Below, one piece after another: positions 7,361-26,244 of a stretch of 27,691 bases of DNA (its first letter is position 1; every line of letters begins with the position of its first letter). The position numbers and the translations under genes were made by a program. The notes under the pieces were generated by a model that saw only the letters and a program-made list of their open reading frames with translations, was not told the DNA's origin and did not search any database. Source of the DNA: a virus; IMG/VR virus record IMGVR_UViG_3300044800_000291, positions 1 through 27,691 of that record. The stretch is one strand, 5' to 3'.

Positions 7361-8536
7361 CTAATTCGCACCTTTCGGGGTATTCCGACGCTGATTCAGT
7401 AGCCTCGCAGCCTCTTCCAGCCTGCCCGTCCGTCGCTTCAGATACCTGGCCATCTGCTTGGGGTCCTTGTCCCCGATGAAGTCGAGCGCCAGCTTGGCGT
7501 CCTTCGTTTCTTCAAGGACGTCGCCGGCGACCATCTTCCGTAGGCCGTGACTGGCGCGCAGTTCCTTTGGCGTGATTCCGGCGCGTCGCTCAGCCTTGTG
7601 GAGGCCATCGATGAATGCGCTGGCCGTATAGGGAGCGTCGGCGCGCCGCTGCCTGTTCTTGGCCTTTCGGGGCGTGTAGAAGACGAACGGGCCGTCGTAC
7701 CCGTCGTGTTCGCGCCAGTGCCACGCGGTCAGAAGAGCAGCGCGTGTGCCGTCCATCAGCGGCTGTCGCCAACTCCTGCCGAGCTTGTCGGTCGCGGCAG
7801 GCCAGTTGATGTAGTCACCATCAATGTCCTCCCACCGGAGGTTCAAGGCCGCATTGATGCGCACACCCTGGTGGCCGAGGAGCGTGGCCACCGCCCATAC
7901 ACGCCAAGTACGCGAGCTGTGCTGGCTCATCACCGCGATCAACTTGTCGTACTGCTCGTCCGTGTACTCCTCCGGCTCTGCGGCCGGATCGTTCTTGGGA
8001 ACCTTGAACTCATGGTCCGGGACCTTGGTCTCGATGAGACCACGCCCGCGAGCCCAGCGGTACACGCGCTTCACGGTGCGGAGGTGCGATTGAACCTGAT
8101 TGCTCACGTGGCCGAAGCGGAGGAGGTTGTCCCGGAAGAGGTCCATCTGGCCGAGCGTGACGGACGCGGCTGGTGTTTCGGGGTTGATGAACTGCTCCCA
8201 CTTCCCCCAGTGCGCAAGGTAGTTGCGTCTGGTCGTCTCCCTCATGCAGTAGAATTCGGCCGTCTTGAATTGCCGCCACAACTCCGCCGTCGTGGATCCC
8301 GGCTGAGGTAGTGGTGGGGTGATGCCTTCAGTGAGGCCGAGTACGAACGCCTTCGCCGCAGTCAGTCCCTTTTCGCTCCGTCTGTACCGCTTGGTCCGTC
8401 GCGTGCCGTTCGATCTCCACCGGACGATGTACTGGCCGCGTCCCTTGTCATCGACAACCCGCGCGCCTCCGCGCCTCGCGGGGGAGGCATGGACCACCTT
8501 GAGCGGAGAGCCTTTGGGCTTCGTCTCCGTCGTCAT
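7361..8536 (-). CDS. int: Tyrosine recombinase / phage integrase
   Basis: A 391-aa site-specific recombinase. The N-terminal part has the AP2-like arm-binding pattern of integrases (GQYIVRWRSNGTRRTKRYRRSEKGLTAAKAF). A SAM-like core-binding domain spans about 85-185. The catalytic domain has R226 (GHQGVRINAALNLRWEDI), H330-R333 (ASHGLRK), a GDKD turn at 355-358 in place of the usual GH, and the nucleophile Y365 (MARYLKR). The start at 8536 has a perfect GGAGG 7-8 bases upstream and overlaps the stop of the preceding HTH gene as ATGA; longer readings are unnecessary. Its 3' end points at the tRNA-fragment att core, the usual geometry for tRNA-targeting integrases. Confidence 0.93.
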   Translation of the reverse strand: MTTETKPKGSPLKVVHASPARRGGARVVDDKGRGQYIVRWRSNGTRRTKRYRRSEKGLTAAKAFVLGLTEGITPPLPQPGSTTAELWRQFKTAEFYCMRETTRRNYLAHWGKWEQFINPETPAASVTLGQMDLFRDNLLRFGHVSNQVQSHLRTVKRVYRWARGRGLIETKVPDHEFKVPKNDPAAEPEEYTDEQYDKLIAVMSQHSSRTWRVWAVATLLGHQGVRINAALNLRWEDIDGDYINWPAATDKLGRSWRQPLMDGTRAALLTAWHWREHDGYDGPFVFYTPRKAKNRQRRADAPYTASAFIDGLHKAERRAGITPKELRASHGLRKMVAGDVLEETKDAKLALDFIGDKDPKQMARYLKRRTGRLEEAARLLNQRRNTPKGAN

Positions 8537-8976
8537 GCGGCCTCCTGGGCCGCGCGGCGACCGGCTTCGTACGCATCGACGACTGCACGGCGGCAGGGCA
8601 CGATGATCGTTCGGTACTGGCGATGTCCTCCACGGATGCGGGCGTGTCCGACTTGCTCCCATTCAGGGAAGCGCTCGCGGAGCCACCGCTTGGCCCTCCC
8701 GGAGCGCAGCATCGCCGCCGATTCGGAAAGCCACTCGAGGTATTCACGAGCGGCGATCGAGACCTCGTCGACCCTGTGTTGCAGGCTTGTCGCAGCGTCT
8801 TCCAGCCCATGTTTACGCAGGGCAGCGACATCACTACGCCACTCTTCGAGCACAGTCTCCAGGTGAGTGTCCTGATGGAGGGCGTACGGCGTGCCGCCCG
8901 CAACAGGTGCTGCCCGCTTGCCCGTACTGTTGTCCTTCTTGCCGCTACGTCGTGATCCCGATGCCTGCTGCATTGC
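8533..8976 (-). CDS. Integrase-coupled DNA-binding protein, possible excisionase/directionality factor
   Basis: A 147-aa protein whose stop overlaps the integrase start. The N-terminus is basic and low-complexity (SGSRRSGKKDNSTGKRA). The middle forms helices (LETVLEEWRSDVAALRKHGLEDAATSLQHRVDEV). The C-terminus (EYLEWLSESAAMLRSGRAKRWLRE, then PEWEQVGHARIRGGHRQYRTIIVP) resembles a winged helix-turn-helix of the kind used by small excisionases, in which a helix pair is followed by a GGHRxYR-like wing. A role controlling recombination direction is inferred from coupling to int. GAGGAA lies upstream of the ATG at 8976; a start further upstream is possible but lacks a good ribosome site. Confidence 0.62.
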   Translation of the reverse strand, partial: AMQQASGSRRSGKKDNSTGKRAAPVAGGTPYALHQDTHLETVLEEWRSDVAALRKHGLEDAATSLQHRVDEVSIAAREYLEWLSESAAMLRSGRAKRWLRERFPEWEQVGHARIRGGHRQYRTIIVPCRRAVVDAYEAGRRAAQEAA

Positions 8977-14547: not shown

Positions 14548-15073
14548 GTTTGCGGGAGCGTGGTTCGGCTAGGGGGTGCTTCTCGCAAGTACGTGGTGTC
14601 CTGGCAATTGCAGCTGCTGGGCGAGCCGAAAACTGCGTGTTCTGCGTTGCTGGGTGGTGGGTGTCTGCCGCGTATCTTCTTATCCCCCAACGGCTTTCAT
14701 GGCCGCCGTTGACATGGCGTGATCCTCGCTCATCCCCTGTCCGCCAATCAGGGGCGAGCTCCCAATCCTCTGCCGTGCAAGAACTTGCAGCCCGCGCAAT
14801 GGTGGCCAGGCGATTCGCAGGTTACCCACCCTATGCCTATCCACCTGAGTGGCTCTGACATCGCCGTCTTGGAGGCCCAGGCGTACACCGGGGGGGGTAT
14901 GCGGTCCTGACAATCGGGAAAGTGGGGCGCGCGCTCGTAGCTCTGGGCGATAACGGACGAAAATTCTCGGCTTACCCACCTGGGTGCGGCTGTTCTGCTC
15001 GCGCCCCGGGTGGCTATCCGCCTCGTCAAGTTGCATCGCCATGGTAGCCAGTTGACGGTGGGGTTAATCTGGA
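14548..15073. other. Gene-poor stretch, nothing confidently coding
   Basis: About 525 bases between the repressor terminator and the retron promoter. Several frames on both strands stay open for 60-120 codons, but none has a convincing ribosome site or recognisable product, and they contradict each other. GGCATAGGGTG on the minus strand near 14833 resembles the downstream half of the repeated promoter but has no matching upstream box. It may contain decayed genes. Confidence 0.4.
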
Positions 15074-15102
15074 TTGACTTTCGGTAACGCCCTTGCTATG
15101 AT
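15074..15102 (+). promoter_or_regulatory. Consensus sigma70 promoter of the retron-like cassette
   Basis: TTGACT (15074-15079), 17 bp, TATGAT (15097-15102), the closest match to a consensus sigma70 promoter in the window. Transcription would begin near 15109, at a TGGCTC-TTCG-GGGCCA hairpin (15107-15122) with a UUCG tetraloop, followed by a boxA-like GCTCTTTGAAA. Confidence 0.75.
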
Positions 15103-15108
15103 TCGGTG

Positions 15109-15398
15109 GCTCTTCGGGGCCAGCTCTTTGAAAAGGTGCATGCGGGGTTATGAATCGCCTCCGGTCGCAGTGATTCTAGTTGCGGCAAGGTGTTCGTGAC
15201 TGGTGGTACTCGTGGCTGTGTTGCCGCCCGTTGCGCTGTGCGCGCGTTTGCCAATCGACGATGGTCGTCCCAGGAGCCCTTGGGGGTTGTGTTGGATGTC
15301 AGTCGATGCAGGCCGGCGCGTTAAGCGTTGACGACACGTTGTCAGCGCTTATCAGTGGGGACACGCCAGGTGGCGTGCCTGTGTTTCGGACCTTTTCA
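15109..15398 (+). ncRNA. Candidate retron msr-msd-type noncoding RNA
   Basis: The leader between the promoter and the first gene is about 290 bases and highly structured. A 9-bp inverted repeat, TGAAAAGGT (15129-15137) and ACCTTTTCA (15390-15398), brackets 252 bases, the geometry of retron a1/a2 ends. Inside are GCGGCAA/TTGCCGC (15182-15188 with 15221-15227), an 11-bp stem with one G-T pair (15322-15332 with 15341-15351) and CACGCC/GGCGTG (15362-15377). It precedes a reverse transcriptase operon and has no convincing ORF. The branch G and the msr/msd boundary cannot be assigned by eye. Confidence 0.55.
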
Positions 15399-15416
15399 CG
15401 GAAGGAGGTGATTCTG

Positions 15417-15785
15417 ATGTGCTTGGACCCGCATGCAGTGGCCAAGATCCGGGCTCGCGTGTTGCTCATCGATTTGGAGCAACTGCTGCTCGCGATGCAG
15501 GCCAGGAATGCGGGCGTCTCGAGTGTCGACCTGACCGTGCTCTGCGTGCTTGAGCAGCGGCTCGGTTGGTGCGATGAGTGCAGCTCGCGGCAACGCTCGA
15601 AGCGACTGCTTTGGTGGGTGTTGAAGCAGGCAGCTGAGCTGTTGATCCGGGCGATCGGGACGTCCCTCTGCTACTTGCGTGCGCGCCTTCTCGCGCACCG
15701 GAGAATAGATGACGCTTGGGAACGCGATCAGACGCCTGCGTGCTGCGGGTGGATGGTCCCAGAAGGACTTCGCACGGCGGCTTGA
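15417..15785 (+). CDS. Unknown 122-aa protein, first gene of retron-like cassette
   Basis: The ATG at 15417 is preceded by AAGGAGGTGATTC (15402-15414), almost the full complement of the 16S rRNA 3' end, one of the strongest ribosome sites possible. The product is helical and leucine-rich (IRARVLLIDLEQLLLAMQA, then VDLTVLCVLEQRLGW), with CDEC. A hydrophobic/amphipathic C-terminal half (LLWWVLKQAAELLIRAIGTSLCYL) could sit in or on a membrane. No family recognised. The last ~25 codons overlap the XRE gene in another frame. By position it is a candidate effector or accessory protein; the alternative, an Avd-like protein of a diversity-generating element, is less likely because the RT motifs are retron-like. 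Confidence 0.6.
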   Translation: MCLDPHAVAKIRARVLLIDLEQLLLAMQARNAGVSSVDLTVLCVLEQRLGWCDECSSRQRSKRLLWWVLKQAAELLIRAIGTSLCYLRARLLAHRRIDDAWERDQTPACCGWMVPEGLRTAA

Positions 15786-16026
15786 GATCTCGCCGTCCTA
15801 CCTCTCGCTGATCGAGACGGACAGACGAGAGCCTGCCCTCCCGCTCGTGCGGAGGATCGCCGACGCGTTGGGGTTGCCTGCGACGATCCTGTTCGCCGCC
15901 GCTCTAGGAGGGGGCGCGGCACGCGGCACGATTGGTGAAGAGTATGACATAGCGCTCGATCGCCTTGTCGAGGTCGCCGGACTGAATCTCGTTCAGGCAC
16001 AGCTGGATTTCGGCGGTGGCAACTAG
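15709..16026 (+). CDS. XRE-family HTH protein, retron accessory
   Basis: A 105-aa protein with a textbook XRE helix-turn-helix in residues 4-60 (GNAIRRLRAAGGWSQKDFAR, then RLEISPSYLSLIETDRREPAL, PLVRRIADALGLP). The short C-terminus (GEEYDIALDRLVEVAGLNLVQAQLDF) is helical. GGAG lies 5 bases before the ATG at 15709. It overlaps the RT gene by 11 bases, so the two are translated as a unit. Some described retrons (the HTH-bearing type) pair an RT with such a protein, so a regulator or a toxin-controlling role is plausible. Confidence 0.85.
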   Translation: MTLGNAIRRLRAAGGWSQKDFARRLEISPSYLSLIETDRREPALPLVRRIADALGLPATILFAAALGGGAARGTIGEEYDIALDRLVEVAGLNLVQAQLDFGGGN

Positions 16027-16891
16027 TTCTGCAGCGGTCTCGAAGCTCGCCACGACTCTGTCGGTCAGTCCGCACGCACTAACCAGCATCCTGGCCCAAC
16101 CCTGGCGGTTGTACCACGTCGTAACCATTCCCAAGAGTGACGGCTCTGCTCGGCGACTGCGCGTACCGGGTGACGACTTGAAGACTCTCCAGCGCGCGGT
16201 TCTCCGCACGATTCTGGACGGCATCGACGACCACCCCGCGAACCACTGTCGCCGAGGCCAATCCGTCATATCCAACGCAAACGTCCATCTCCACAGTGCG
16301 CATGGCTCATCGTACGACATTGCGGATTGCTTCCCTAACACGACTCCAGCCATGGTCCGACGTGCACTTCGCGCGTGGCGTGTCGATGCGGATCTTGTGG
16401 CCCCCATCACCAGCATCTGCACGCTTCGCAAGGAGCTTCCCCAGGGGGCACCGACCAGCCCGGCGCTGCTAAGCGCAGTGCTCCGGCCGCTCGACGAGGC
16501 TCTCACGCAAGAAGCTGCGCGACAGGGCCTTCACTACACGCGATATATGGATGACCTGTTCGTGTCAGGAGGGAGGAGAGCCGGATCGTTCGAACCATAC
16601 GTTCATCGAGCGGTGACGGGCTTGGGTTATGATCTCGCGGACCGCAAGACGCGGCATTGGGGCCCTGGCTCTCGCCCGACCCTACTCGGGATTGTGCTGG
16701 ACACTACGCCGAGTCCACGCCCCGAGTATGTGGAGGAAGTTGTCCGGCTGGTGGCAACTGTGACCCGGAGCCCGCGGTCAGCGACCAGAAAGGACATCGC
16801 TCGGCTCAAAGGCCGTGTCGCATGGATTGGGGCTCTGTGGCCGCGAAAGGGCCGCGAGCTTCTCACACAGTTGGCTAACGCAGGGCTTTAG
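16016..16891 (+). CDS. Retron-type reverse transcriptase
   Basis: A 291-aa RT. Motifs in order: the N-terminal block VTIPKSDGSARRLRVPGDDLKTLQR (36-60); GQSVISNANVHLH (81-93), matching the retron NAxxH signature; the first catalytic aspartate in YDIADCFPN (D101); QGAPTSP (143-149); YTRYMDDLFVS with the catalytic pair D179-D180; LADRKT (207-212); and TLLGIVLD (222-229), where retrons usually have VTG. The C-terminus RLKGRVAWIGALWP matches the retron thumb end. All catalytic residues are present, so it should be active. GTG at 16016 lies inside the XRE gene end. The YMDD box (rather than YADD) and the TLLG variant make it a divergent member. It would copy part of the upstream structured RNA. Confidence 0.85.
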   Translation: MATSSAAVSKLATTLSVSPHALTSILAQPWRLYHVVTIPKSDGSARRLRVPGDDLKTLQRAVLRTILDGIDDHPANHCRRGQSVISNANVHLHSAHGSSYDIADCFPNTTPAMVRRALRAWRVDADLVAPITSICTLRKELPQGAPTSPALLSAVLRPLDEALTQEAARQGLHYTRYMDDLFVSGGRRAGSFEPYVHRAVTGLGYDLADRKTRHWGPGSRPTLLGIVLDTTPSPRPEYVEEVVRLVATVTRSPRSATRKDIARLKGRVAWIGALWPRKGRELLTQLANAGL

Positions 16892-17239
16892 CTGCTGGTG
16901 CCCTCTCTGGATCGGAGGCGACCACTCTCGATGGTGTCCCTGTTGAGGGGGAATTGCCTGTAGCCATCACACTTACGCTCGAACTTCACCGCCTCAAGGC
17001 CACGAGACACGTTCAGCATCCCGCACACACGCCCGTCGTGGAGCGGACAGCACACCGTTAGCATCACGCTCGCCATCGGCGGGCGGAACCGCTGCTCGAT
17101 GACCAGCACGCGCAGTTGGTCCTTCTCGCCCTCCGGCTACTTGCAGAAGGCTGATCACCAGCCGCCCACCTCCTTCCACGGCCTGGACGCCTACCGTCGA
17201 GATTGCTTGCGTGCGCGCCCGACGTTCGAGGAACTCCAC
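16888..17239 (-). pseudogene. Possible small gene, probably frameshifted
   Basis: On the minus strand an upstream frame reads VEFLERRARTQAISTVGVQAVEG, then GGRLVISLLQ. Near 17140 a different frame takes over as PEGEKDQLRVLVIEQRFRPP and runs through MLTVCCPLHDGRVCGMLNVSRG and FERKCDGYRQFPLN to a stop at 16888. Both parts look coding and would join with a one-base shift. The second part alone (start GTG 17109) has AAGGA upstream and could be an independent 73-aa gene with a Cys-rich zinc-like centre. It converges on the RT stop. Family unknown. Confidence 0.4.
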
Positions 17240-17240
17240 C

Positions 17241-17276
17241 TGTAAGGATCTAGGTCCGTCCGGCGGTACTGGGTAG
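17241..17276 (+). promoter_or_regulatory. Repeated early promoter-like element, copy 3
   Basis: TGTAAGG (17241-17247), 17 bp, GGTACTGGGTAG (17265-17276). The upstream box is perfect and the downstream box differs at one or two places from the consensus. It lies 43 bases before the small gene at 17319. Confidence 0.55.
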
Positions 17277-17318
17277 ACGGGCGCAGTCGAGCTGCGCCCC
17301 CAACCAGGAGCCTGCCAC

Positions 17319-17543
17319 ATGATTCCGCACTACCGCCCCAATAGGGAATACGGGCACTTCGTCGCCATCACGGGAAACACCGTCCGGCTCGTGAGCACCC
17401 CCGACCACCGTTTCGCACTCTGGCTCGAGATCCCGGACCAAGCACTGGTCGCGGAGCTTCGCACGTACACCCGCCTGGCCGACGCCTTCACCGCCTTCGG
17501 AAACCTGATCGAGAACAGCTACCCCGGGGGGTCGGTTCTATGA
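17319..17543 (+). CDS. Small early protein, unknown (74 aa)
   Basis: A 74-aa protein with AGGAG 8 bases before the ATG and promoter-like copy 3 upstream. The sequence YGHFVAITGNTVRLVSTPDH, then FALWLEIPDQALVAELRTYTRLADAFTAF predicts two strands and two helices. No family recognised. It is a monocistronic early gene by context. Confidence 0.6.
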   Translation: MIPHYRPNREYGHFVAITGNTVRLVSTPDHRFALWLEIPDQALVAELRTYTRLADAFTAFGNLIENSYPGGSVL

Positions 17544-17641: not shown

Positions 17642-17678
17642 TGTAAGGGTTTGTCGCCGTCGAGATGTAATAGCATGA
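17642..17678 (+). promoter_or_regulatory. Repeated early promoter-like element, copy 4
   Basis: TGTAAGG (17642-17648), 17 bp, TGTAAT (17666-17671) followed by AGCATG. This copy keeps both boxes and the spacing but loses the GGGT tail. It precedes the DUF6891-like gene by about 75 bases. Confidence 0.5.
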
Positions 17679-17752
17679 GGCCATCGATGCGTCGGTGGAC
17701 AGTGGGGCTGGACCAATGTTGGAGAACGATCACACACACAAGGAGCAGGACA

Positions 17753-18613
17753 ATGACGGCACCGCAGGAGCAGGGCACCGAGGAGATCGATCACAATCAC
17801 GCACGGAGCACCACAACCATGACGGTATCGCCGGAGCAGGGCACTGCAGCGTGGGAGGCAATCGTGAACGACATGGACGCTCACATTGAAGTCCTTGTCG
17901 AGCGGGGATTCTCCGACCGAGACGAGGTGATCAGCGACGTACTCGAGGCCGCCTATCGTAGCATCGGCGATTCTGTGCAGGGCAAACTCTCTGAACCGGA
18001 AGCCCGGATTCACTTCATCGCCGAGCTGCTGTCTCGCGTCCCTCAGCCTGCCGAGTCGATGCGGTCGCTGGTCGAGCACCGCGTGGACGCCGCCTTCGCG
18101 GCGCAGGTCATTGAGGAGGGTACCTGGCCGGCCGTTACGGACAACGACTGCCTCAACAGTGCGTTCGAAGACCTGGAGGCACGGGGCATTCTTGCTCGGC
18201 AGGACTTCATGGACTGCCCGAACTGCGCTCACAACGCGCTGATGGAGGAGGCGGAGGAACTGCAGAAGGAGGGTGCTGAGGTTCGCGGATTCGTGTTCTA
18301 CGACTGGGACAACACGGAAGAAGCCATGAACGGGAATGGCGTGTGCCTCTGGTTTGGCTCCACTCGGGAGGCTGGTTCTACAAAGCGCACGATTGGACGA
18401 GAGGTCGTCGAAGTGCTCCAGGCAACTGGCCTTTGCCCCATCTGGTCCGGTAGCCCCGACGAGACGATCGAGGTGCCCATGGTATGGCAGCGGCGGGTGG
18501 TCTCGCAGCCCTACTGCCCTGACATCCACGCGACCCCGGATGCCGTCGCACGAGCGAGGTGCGTATTTCGGACCATGACGGACACCGATTTGGACGGATG
18601 TCGGACAAGCTGA
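17753..18613 (+). CDS. DUF6891-like protein
   Basis: A 286-aa protein. The C-terminal two thirds contain the DUF6891 pattern: DCLNSAFEDLEARGILARQDF (132-152), the CPNC pair, GFVFYDWDNTEEA, VCLWFG, REVVEVLQATGLCPIWSGS, then IEVPMVWQRR. Function of the family is unknown. The N-terminal ~120 residues are acidic and helical. AGGA lies 8 bases before the ATG at 17753. The start region is duplicated: a second ATGACGG...GAGCAGGGCAC occurs 66 bases later at 17819, in frame, so that ATG could be an alternative start. Promoter-like copy 4 lies upstream. Confidence 0.72.
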   Translation: MTAPQEQGTEEIDHNHARSTTTMTVSPEQGTAAWEAIVNDMDAHIEVLVERGFSDRDEVISDVLEAAYRSIGDSVQGKLSEPEARIHFIAELLSRVPQPAESMRSLVEHRVDAAFAAQVIEEGTWPAVTDNDCLNSAFEDLEARGILARQDFMDCPNCAHNALMEEAEELQKEGAEVRGFVFYDWDNTEEAMNGNGVCLWFGSTREAGSTKRTIGREVVEVLQATGLCPIWSGSPDETIEVPMVWQRRVVSQPYCPDIHATPDAVARARCVFRTMTDTDLDGCRTS

Positions 18614-23231: not shown

Positions 23232-23980
23232 CCACGCGGAGCCGCGGCCGCCGCAAGCCCCAAGGCGCTGACCCCACGCTTGCGTTGGGCTACATCAGGG
23301 TGAGCCGTGAGGAACAGGTGCGCGAGGGCGTCAGCCTCGACGCCCAGCGCGACCGCGTCGCCGCCTACGCGATCGCCAAGGGTCTGACACTGGTGGATGT
23401 GATCGCCGATGAGGGGCTCTCCGGCAAGGACACAAATCGGCCTGGCCTTCAAGACCTGTTAGCCCGCTGCGAGCGCGGGGAGGCCAAGCACGTCATCGTC
23501 TGGAAGCTCGATCGACTAACTCGCCGGACCCGGCACCTGCTCGGCCTGGTTGAGGACTTGTTCATTGACGACGGCATCGAGCTGCATTCCGTCTCGGAGT
23601 CGCTCGACACGTCGACACCGCACGGCCGGTTCGTCCTGACACTATTCGGGGGTCTCGCGCAGATGGAGCGTGAGCTTATCGTCGAGCGGACGCGGTCCGC
23701 GCTGGCGTTCAAACGCGAGCAGGGGCAGCCAACGAGTCACCCGCCGCTCGGCTTCATGTCGACGGGAAAGCGGAGCAGGATGACTCCGGTGCCGGCGGAG
23801 CTAGCCGTCGTGGAGCGCATCCTCTTCTTGTGGCGGCAGGGTAAGACGTTCGCCGCCATCGCTGCCACGCTCGATGCGGAAGGGGCAAGGACGAAGCGGG
23901 GCCGCTCCTGGCACGCGTCGACGGTCTGGAACGTGGTCCAGCGACGGCAAGTGTACGTCGATGCTCAGAAGGCGTCGTAG
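23228..23980 (+). CDS. Serine recombinase (small, resolvase + partial recombinase domain)
   Basis: A serine recombinase of 231-250 aa. The catalytic serine lies in GYIRVSREEQVREGVSLDAQ. DEGLSGKDTNRPGLQ, VWKLDRLTRRTRHL and HGRFVLTLFGGLAQMERELIVERT are the remaining resolvase motifs. The C-terminus (PPLGFMSTGKRS, AELAVVERILFLWRQGKTFAAIAATL, RSWHASTVWNVVQR) is the recombinase/HTH part in short form. Such proteins commonly sit near prophage ends and drive integration. The start is uncertain. I favour CTG 23228 because GGGGAG lies 7 bases upstream and the N-terminal TTRSRGRRKPQG extension reads naturally. TTG 23285 is the conservative alternative. Confidence 0.85.
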   Translation: MTTRSRGRRKPQGADPTLALGYIRVSREEQVREGVSLDAQRDRVAAYAIAKGLTLVDVIADEGLSGKDTNRPGLQDLLARCERGEAKHVIVWKLDRLTRRTRHLLGLVEDLFIDDGIELHSVSESLDTSTPHGRFVLTLFGGLAQMERELIVERTRSALAFKREQGQPTSHPPLGFMSTGKRSRMTPVPAELAVVERILFLWRQGKTFAAIAATLDAEGARTKRGRSWHASTVWNVVQRRQVYVDAQKAS

Positions 23981-24123: not shown

Positions 24124-26244
24124 ATGTCCACGTGCGTCGGTTGCAGCCAGGAGGTAGAGGTCTCGGCTGCCTTCTGTCCGCGGTGCGGCACGCCCAATCC
24201 TGACGCCAAGAGCATCCCGACCCGGAACAGCGACGAGATTGCGGAGCACATCCCAGTGGACGACCTGCGCGTGGACCTTCAGTCCGCGCTCGGGGCCGAC
24301 TTCACAGTGGAACGGCCCTTGGGGGAGGGCGGGTTCGCCATCGTGTTCCTGGTGCAGGACAAGAAGCTCTCGCGCCGCATCGCGGTGAAGGTGCTCCGGC
24401 CGGAGTTGACGGCGAGCCACTCGGGCGTCCGCCGCTTCGTGCGCGAGGCCGAGTCTGTCGCGAGCCTCAATCACCCGCACATTCTCCCGATCTTCTTCGT
24501 TGGCCAGGGAAAGGGACTGGTCTACTTCGGCATGCCCTTGGTGGACGGTGAGTCTCTCGACGCCGTCCTAGCTCGCGAGGGGCAGCTGGCGGAGGTCGAG
24601 GTCGTTCGGTTGGGGAGCGCCGTGGCCGACGCGCTGGGGGAGGCGCACGCGAACGGACTCGTCCACCGGGACGTCAAGCCGGCGAACATCCTGCTCCAGG
24701 GGAGCGGACGCCGCCCGCTGGTCACGGACTTCGGCATCGCCAAGGCGGCGAAGGGCGCCGACGACAAGCTGACGGGCACCGGCGTCGTGATCGGCTCACC
24801 ACACTACATGAGCCCCGAACAGGCTGGCGGGTCATCGGACATCGACCATCGAAGTGACATCTACTCTCTCGGCATCATGCTGTGGCAGATGCTGGCCGGA
24901 TCGCTCCCGTTCGATGCGCCAGATACCCGCAGCATCCTCATGCAGCACCTGACGCAGCCGCTGCCTTCGCTGCGGGAACGCCGGCCGTCCGTGCGTGCGG
25001 AATTGATGCGCGTCGTCGAGCGCTGCACCGCCAAGGCGCGCGAGGACCGATATCAGACTGCGGCCGAGGTCGCGGAGGCCCTGCGTGCGGCGGCGACTCG
25101 GGAGATGACGCAACCTCCTCGTCGCAGACGATGGGTGCCGCTTGTGGCGACTGCCGTAGTGGCTGTGGTAGCAGTCGCTGTCGGCATCGCGGTGCTGCAA
25201 TCCGTCCGGCGGCATGGCCCCATCGAGCCGACACGCTCCGCGGCCACCGCCGGCGGCAGCACCCGGATCACAGCTCCTGTCATCGCGGTATTGCCCTTCG
25301 AGGTGGCCGGCGCACGCGACTCTGCGGAGATGAGCCGGACCGCTTCCCGCCTGCTTACCAAGGCCCTCGCGACTGGGCTTGGCGTTGCTACTGTGGACGT
25401 GAACCGCTTCTTGAGCCTGTGGGCTTCGGAGCGACACAGTCTCGCCGCGCCCCTCGACTCGAATGCGGCATTCGCCTACCAACAGGGCGCCAATCAGTTG
25501 GTGTTTGGCAGTTCAGTCCAAGTGGGAACGCAGGTCAGGTTGTCCGTTGACATCTACGACACGCGCGATCTCGCGTCGCTCGGCCAGGCCGAACTGACAG
25601 GGAATCCGGACAGTCTTTTTGTGCTGGTGGACCGACTCGCCAACGACGTGGCCACCGTCTTCTGCAAGCGCCCGGCCTTCAACCCGCGCAATCTGTGTTT
25701 CGACGTTGCCGCAAGGCCGGTCCAGCCAATTGTCGTAGCCTACGCCGGCCACCCGCCGTCTCCGGCACTGAAGGTCTCCGTCCGCGTCACGCGCGACGGC
25801 GCATACGCCGACGTGGAGCCAGGGTCTACTCCTCCAGACGTGCTGGCTGCGGCCTTGCCAGTGCTGGCGGCAGCCCGGTTCCAAGCGGCGCGAAAGGACG
25901 GTAGGACGGTGGACGCGTGGACTGAGACGGAGATCACTGTCCGGGCGCCGGAGGCGAGCCCGGCTCCGTCGACACCAGTGCCATATGCAGGGGCGTCAGG
26001 CGCCATCTCGCTGGGGACGCGGCCGGTCTCCACGATCTATGTGAATGGCATCGCGCGCGGTTCTCGCCTGAATCGGGCTGAAGTACCTGCGGGGAGGGTT
26101 CGGCTGACGTTCCAGGTGCAGGATTCTACAGGCATGTGGTGGGCGGAGCCCCGGGAGATCACGGTGCGTCCGAACACGGTCACAGTCCTCGGCTACATCC
26201 CGCTAGTGCGGCCCGGATCTGTCGGCAGGCTACAGCAGCCATGA
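24124..26244 (+). CDS. Ser/Thr protein kinase with zinc ribbon, TolB-like and PEGA-like regions
   Basis: A 706-aa membrane kinase. Residues 4-22 are a zinc ribbon (CVGCSQE...CPRCG). The kinase domain (about 60-320) has the glycine loop LGEGGFAIVF, K89 in AVKVL, HRDVKPANILL (D183), TDFGIAK (D202) and GSPHYMSPEQ. A single transmembrane helix spans about 338-360. A TolB-N-like region (VIAVLPFEVAG, then LLTKALATGLGV) lies outside. The C-terminus is a PEGA-like strand module (RPVSTIYVNG, EVPAGRVRLTFQVQDSTGMWW). All catalytic residues are present, so it is probably active. This layout is typical of Gemmatimonadota chromosomal kinases, so it likely lies outside the phage. Its stop overlaps the next start. 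Confidence 0.92.
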   Translation: MSTCVGCSQEVEVSAAFCPRCGTPNPDAKSIPTRNSDEIAEHIPVDDLRVDLQSALGADFTVERPLGEGGFAIVFLVQDKKLSRRIAVKVLRPELTASHSGVRRFVREAESVASLNHPHILPIFFVGQGKGLVYFGMPLVDGESLDAVLAREGQLAEVEVVRLGSAVADALGEAHANGLVHRDVKPANILLQGSGRRPLVTDFGIAKAAKGADDKLTGTGVVIGSPHYMSPEQAGGSSDIDHRSDIYSLGIMLWQMLAGSLPFDAPDTRSILMQHLTQPLPSLRERRPSVRAELMRVVERCTAKAREDRYQTAAEVAEALRAAATREMTQPPRRRRWVPLVATAVVAVVAVAVGIAVLQSVRRHGPIEPTRSAATAGGSTRITAPVIAVLPFEVAGARDSAEMSRTASRLLTKALATGLGVATVDVNRFLSLWASERHSLAAPLDSNAAFAYQQGANQLVFGSSVQVGTQVRLSVDIYDTRDLASLGQAELTGNPDSLFVLVDRLANDVATVFCKRPAFNPRNLCFDVAARPVQPIVVAYAGHPPSPALKVSVRVTRDGAYADVEPGSTPPDVLAAALPVLAAARFQAARKDGRTVDAWTETEITVRAPEASPAPSTPVPYAGASGAISLGTRPVSTIYVNGIARGSRLNRAEVPAGRVRLTFQVQDSTGMWWAEPREITVRPNTVTVLGYIPLVRPGSVGRLQQP

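Follow-up and report, generated by a model that had tools for sequence, protein, structure and literature searches.

A candidate divergent type VI-like retron on a phage-like record, with a leader predicted to fold in two alternative ways

The DNA studied here, IMG/VR virus record IMGVR_UViG_3300044800_000291 (27,691 bases, hereafter the window), carries a promoter followed by a noncoding leader of ~300 nt, a Shine-Dalgarno sequence, a small ORF, an XRE HTH gene and a reverse transcriptase (RT) gene. Two complementarities found in this leader lead to a predicted fold switch. In our interpretation, to which we give a probability of about 0.6, the locus is a divergent type VI-like retron, and its leader would act both as template RNA and as a translation switch for a small effector. 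The leader itself is most likely the template RNA of the retron and would be reverse transcribed.

The retron operon and its surroundings

The operon comprises the following features:

15074-15102, + strand: sigma-70-type promoter TTGACT-17-TATGAT with TG (extended -10), near consensus; one found compared to 0.3 expected by shuffles
15108-15401, + strand: leader, noncoding and structured, a candidate for the msr-msd template RNA (flat GC, z -2.6, position 5' of the retron operon)
15402-15411, + strand: Shine-Dalgarno sequence AAGGAGGTGA, near-perfect
15417-15785, + strand: small ORF P0003, 122 aa, candidate effector, with a GC3 coding signal to ~15706
15709-16026, + strand: XRE-type HTH protein P0002 (Pfam HTH_31/HTH_3; PADLOC HTH_VI, 59 bits)
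16016-16891, + strand: retron-type RT P0001 (NAxxH, LPQGAPTSP, YMDD; LLG replaces VTG)

The leader thus lies, as first proposed, between a good promoter (15074-15102) and an operon encoding a retron-type RT (16016-16891), and no second promoter was found in 14900-17300. The GC content by codon position is flat over 15180-15416 (0.59/0.57/0.65), which indicates noncoding DNA, and strongly coding from 15417 to ~15706 (0.63/0.44/0.81). The small ORF overlaps the HTH gene, which is itself overlapped by the RT gene over 11 nt.

The RT belongs to the retron clade according to its matches with PADLOC retron models (best score 163 bits, for RT_other; lower, 137 bits, for RT_VI), with the NCBIfam model retron_St85 (144 bits, under the cut-off of 235) and with the retron Ec86 RT, its best PDB sequence match (6e-22), and its catalytic motifs NAxxH, LPQGAPTSP and YMDD are intact. 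It does not carry the VTG of region Y and reads TLLGIVL there; since AG or LG also occurs at this position in several aligned retron-type RTs, the absence of VTG is not decisive. This RT is an orphan on a long branch, with no relative above ~39% identity. Residues 57-96 of the small protein are predicted to form a basic, Trp-containing amphipathic helix, whose hydrophobicity (0.42) and moment (0.44) are inside the type VI range, and a structure modelled from the single sequence contains three helices, at low confidence (pLDDT 50). We infer that this protein is the effector.

No close relative of the RT, the HTH protein, the small ORF or the leader was found among viral contigs (searched with an RT alignment and with the sequences of the RT, the HTH protein and the small ORF; four matches to a DNA pattern aside), genome contigs (among the matches listed), plasmids, phages and ~1,900 genomes of Myxococcota, Verrucomicrobiota, Acidobacteriota, Planctomycetota and Chloroflexota plus eight of another, small phylum. 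The probable host phylum, Gemmatimonadota, lies outside the set covered. These searches yielded no homologous leader, and hence no covariation to back either of the two helices described below.

The window is phage-like and probably a prophage fragment. At its right end, the DNA probably belongs to a Gemmatimonadota host, since the best plasmid match of the PknB-type kinase encoded at 24124-26244 is Gemmatirosa. The record carries two kinds of recombinases, tyrosine integrase-type and serine resolvase/recombinase (7361-8662, 23285-23980). A DUF6891 protein, a possible cargo, is encoded 3' of the RT (17651-18613), beyond a gap of >400 nt without evident gene, and a DUF5131 protein is encoded on the opposite strand in another part of the phage region (10147-11202). 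A retron with an ATPase and PtuB was also observed in a filamentous Vibrio phage record (L176), the annotation of which assigns it to type I-A.

Two alternative folds of the leader

The elements of the leader that enter into its folding are:

15108-15121, + strand: hairpin GGCUC-UUCG-GGGCC at the 5' end predicted for the transcript
15129-15137, + strand: candidate a1 TGAAAAGGT, inverted repeat
15137-15162, + strand: TGCATGCGGG (pairs with 15428-15437) and GAATCGCCTCC at 15152-15162 (pairs with 15404-15414), which make up the 5' strand of the competing helix
15154-15159, + strand: ATCGCC motif, 19 nt downstream of where the ORF-complementary segment starts, putatively homologous to a type VI motif
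15322-15351, + strand: long hairpin of the candidate msd, with 14-nt arms that are 86% complementary and form G-U pairs at the remaining positions
15362-15377, + strand: short GC hairpin CACGCC-AGGT-GGCGTG
15390-15398, + strand: candidate a2 ACCTTTTCA, inverted repeat
15404-15437, + strand: GGAGGTGATTC at the ribosome site and CCCGCATGCA in codons 4-7, which make up the 3' strand of the competing helix

The original prediction, made from the letters of this DNA, was that of a retron msr-msd RNA bounded by a1/a2 arms. The 9-bp arms are indeed exact reverse complements, separated by 252 nt (TGAAAAGGT at 15129-15137 and ACCTTTTCA at 15390-15398), and the second one ends 3 nt before the ribosome site AAGGAGGTGA. 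The fold of 15109-15410 (-133.6 kcal/mol, z = -2.6, 0/100 shuffles as stable) pairs the arms and contains several stems inside them, in agreement with the prediction, and the a1/a2 pairing probability reaches 0.89-1.0 in the isolated leader. G15138, located directly 3' of a1, is a candidate branching G, since retron priming requires a G right after a1 (PMC8989520). With the same geometry, which was picked after the fact, chance gives a perfect pair of at least 9 nt in 0.5% of dinucleotide shuffles (24 of 5000) and, on sliding along the window, at 1.15% of positions. The comparison with covariance models of known retron ncRNAs that had been suggested gave no match to any retron RNA model in Rfam; a weak purD match (20 of 41 bits) was dismissed.

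A neighbouring 10-nt inverted repeat (15137-15146 with 15428-15437), incompatible with the arms, had been overlooked. It begins at the last base of a1, and its partner lies within codons 4-7. Furthermore, GAATCGCCTCC (15152-15162) pairs with GGAGGTGATTC (15404-15414) with one G-U, and the combined helix of ~25 bp covers the ribosome site and the start codon. Its energy is -40.6 kcal/mol compared to a shuffled mean of -28.2 kcal/mol (8/3000 shuffles as low), a value that is not extreme since 3 of 87 ordinary GC-matched genes are as low. Because the two helices cross and share T15137, they were treated as alternatives, the secondary structures being predicted without pseudoknots. In folds of the growing transcript, a1/a2 is kept up to an end at ~15425 and a full switch to the competing helix occurs from ~15430, with a probability of ~0.99 in transcripts extending further; forcing a1/a2 in the longer transcript costs 4-5 kcal/mol. 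In the a1/a2 state, the ribosome site is still partly paired and the start codon is freed.

The retron-type RT, the promoter, the structured noncoding leader and the G adjacent to a1 are consistent with a retron template RNA, but no retron RNA model of Rfam matches, and the arms are predicted to be paired only in RNA ending before ~15425; they are unpaired once codons 4-7 are included, an outcome that had been announced as speaking against the claim. The a1/a2 helix as claimed is plausible, and the link between leader folding and translation of the first gene, also put forward at the outset, is better supported. Folding models thus predict a leader with two states, the classical retron fold and one that seals the ribosome site of the first gene, and this switch would operate in the cell.

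Comparison with type VI retrons

The gene order of the window also occurs in a published Mu-like phage of Shewanella that is described as type VI (PMC8541194). Since the best match of the HTH protein in the PADLOC library is moreover HTH_VI (59 bits), the window was compared with type VI retrons, using ~50 loci checked for gene order (phage, E. coli and viral-contig members). In nearly all these loci, the XRE HTH gene overlaps the RT start, and all but four carry, 5' of the HTH gene, a gene encoding a basic Trp-containing peptide of 48-67 aa. The window has this organization, with a small protein gene and an HTH gene located 5' of the RT and overlapping, and it shares carriage by phages with type VI retrons (Klebsiella ST147-VIM1phi7.1, Shewanella MuM16-1 and E. 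coli P2_2H1; Peduoviridae and Mu-like phages). However, its small protein is about twice as long (122 aa compared to 48-67 aa), and its RT carries LPQGAPTSP and YMDD whereas type VI RTs have, where readable, LPTGS and YVDD or YIDD. A free tree places the RT of the window apart from the type VI clade, which has full support; constraining it to group with type VI RTs gains 3.8 log-likelihood units over the free quick tree, and this grouping is not rejected (p-AU 0.58). The window matches type VI by gene order but not by RT signature, the trees deciding for neither, and we call it a divergent, type VI-like retron.

An inverted-repeat listing revealed that type VI leaders are complementary to the first codons of their small ORF. 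Among 14 divergent type VI families, and relative to a null made of own-sequence dinucleotide shuffles of each leader segment, ORF positions +5 to +35 pair with the 5' leader segment (Fisher p = 2.8e-5) and with the 3' leader segment (Fisher p = 1.2e-10), whereas four control segment pairs give p values from 0.75 to 1.0. A cross-locus permutation null, confounded by base composition (one control p of 0.0009), was replaced. Since the pairing is kept while sequences differ (TGCTGTTC/GAACAGCA, TGCTGATC/GATCAGCA, TGCTGGTT/AACCAGCA and CAGCCAGTTA/TAACTGGCTG), it shows covariation. Mutual complementarity was seen in eight of these leaders (L173, L183, L208, L172, L209, L186, L216 and L217), between S1a and codons, S2a and neighbouring codons, and S1b and S2b. 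More precisely, S1a pairs with S3a and S2a with S3b in the early codons, and S1b/S2b is a short third pairing resembling a1/a2. In seven of eight families, the 3' leader segment lies 0-1 nt 5' of the second arm of S1b/S2b, where reverse transcription would begin. Type VI leaders, which occupy the same position in the operon as that of the window, also have a covarying long hairpin. Our own type VI covariance model (MAFFT, RNAalifold) retained three pairs only and was dropped.

The window has a 10-bp pairing between 5' leader and ORF with the same geometry (p = 0.002), a complementarity at +10 to +21 that is common to type VI retrons, and none of the 87 ordinary GC-matched control genes reaches 9 bp of such pairing. 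Seven type VI families carry CGCC or CGTC 18-22 nt downstream of where their ORF-complementary segment starts, and the ATCGCC of the window may correspond to it. The second pairing of type VI retrons, between 3' leader and ORF, was not detected in the window by the same shuffle test, and, unlike in type VI, the helix of the window covers the ribosome site itself. Overall, type VI retrons seem to share a fold trait between leader and first gene similar to that of the window. Near type VI promoters, an exact palindrome, TTCGC-N5-GCGAA, was observed in 8 of 14 families (L172, L209, L186, L216, L217, L220, L222 and L184), and with one mismatch in two more; it is likely the operator of the HTH protein and is absent from the window.

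The window shares a retron-type RT, candidate a1/a2 arms and a G after a1 with retron Ec86 (Eco1) and other msr-msd retrons, but its RNA has no sequence or Rfam similarity with theirs and its effector gene is of a different kind. In type I toxin loci such as hok, the toxin mRNA occludes itself, a long-range fold-back hiding the start of a small ORF. The fold-back predicted in the window hides the start of its small ORF similarly; however, unlike in hok-type loci, this RNA precedes an RT whose template it would be, and no antisense RNA gene was seen.

Alternative readings and possible mechanism

The leader could be a classical retron template in which a1/a2 is the working fold, pairing with the ribosome site and codons being accidental in a GC-rich sequence. 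Pairing of the arms in the isolated leader, the G right after a1 and the retron-type RT downstream are all consistent with this reading, which we nevertheless consider unlikely: the longer transcript favours the other fold by 4-5 kcal/mol, an equivalent in type VI relatives exists for the competing helix alone, and the chance level of a1/a2 (0.5-1.2%, with its post hoc geometry) is not below that of this helix (0.2%). The long helix over the ribosome site and the start codon would equally suit a 5' UTR controlling only translation of the small protein, with a template located elsewhere (e.g. 16892-17320) or an RT devoid of one, and the lack of an Rfam match, together with the impossibility of a covariation analysis, is compatible with it. 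However, type VI leaders at the same position show both an a1/a2-like pairing and the covarying long hairpin, and the sole promoter found in 14900-17300 is upstream of the leader, which makes this explanation slightly less likely still.

That the locus is a decayed retron or an unrelated prophage leader with complementarities all due to chance appears very improbable. Although the RT is an orphan on a long branch and each helix alone has modest p values, the catalytic motifs are intact, the genes are open with coding composition, and the promoter and ribosome site are near consensus. The divergent type VI-like retron with a dual-function leader therefore remains our preferred reading, despite the lack of a homologous leader in the searches, the RT scores and signature, the absence of the second pairing and of the operator, a duplex energy that is not extreme, a ribosome site still partly paired in the a1/a2 state, and the length of the small ORF and its overlap with the HTH gene, which all argue against it.

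According to this preferred reading, the leader (15108-15401) would close through the 9-bp a1/a2 helix, and G15138 would then be the likely 2'-OH primer. When transcription has passed the first codons of the small ORF and no ribosome keeps them open, the segment following a1 would refold and pair with codons 4-7 as well as with the start codon and the ribosome site, silencing the small protein and opening a1/a2. Conversely, if ribosomes occupy the start region or if the RNA is cut before the codons, a1/a2 would close and reverse transcription could start. The reverse-transcription fold and the silencing of the first gene would thus be alternatives in one RNA. This direction of control is tentative, the ribosome site also being partly paired in the computed a1/a2 state, with the start codon freed. 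In type VI proper, copying would begin immediately 5' of a2, at a segment that is the putative antisense of early small-ORF codons (S2a/S3b), and turning this 3' segment into DNA would consume the antisense of the effector codons.

Type VI retrons are common in P2-like prophages, and the literature searched (the founding classification paper being outside this search) offered no explanation of how they sense infection or control their effector; such a switch would therefore matter. Tentatively, and with more doubt than for the window itself, type VI and type VI-like retrons may be switches that gate translation by reverse transcription, the window being a divergent form in which pairing is spread over the ribosome site. 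Gain or loss of RT-DNA would then decide whether a small, probably toxic peptide is translated.
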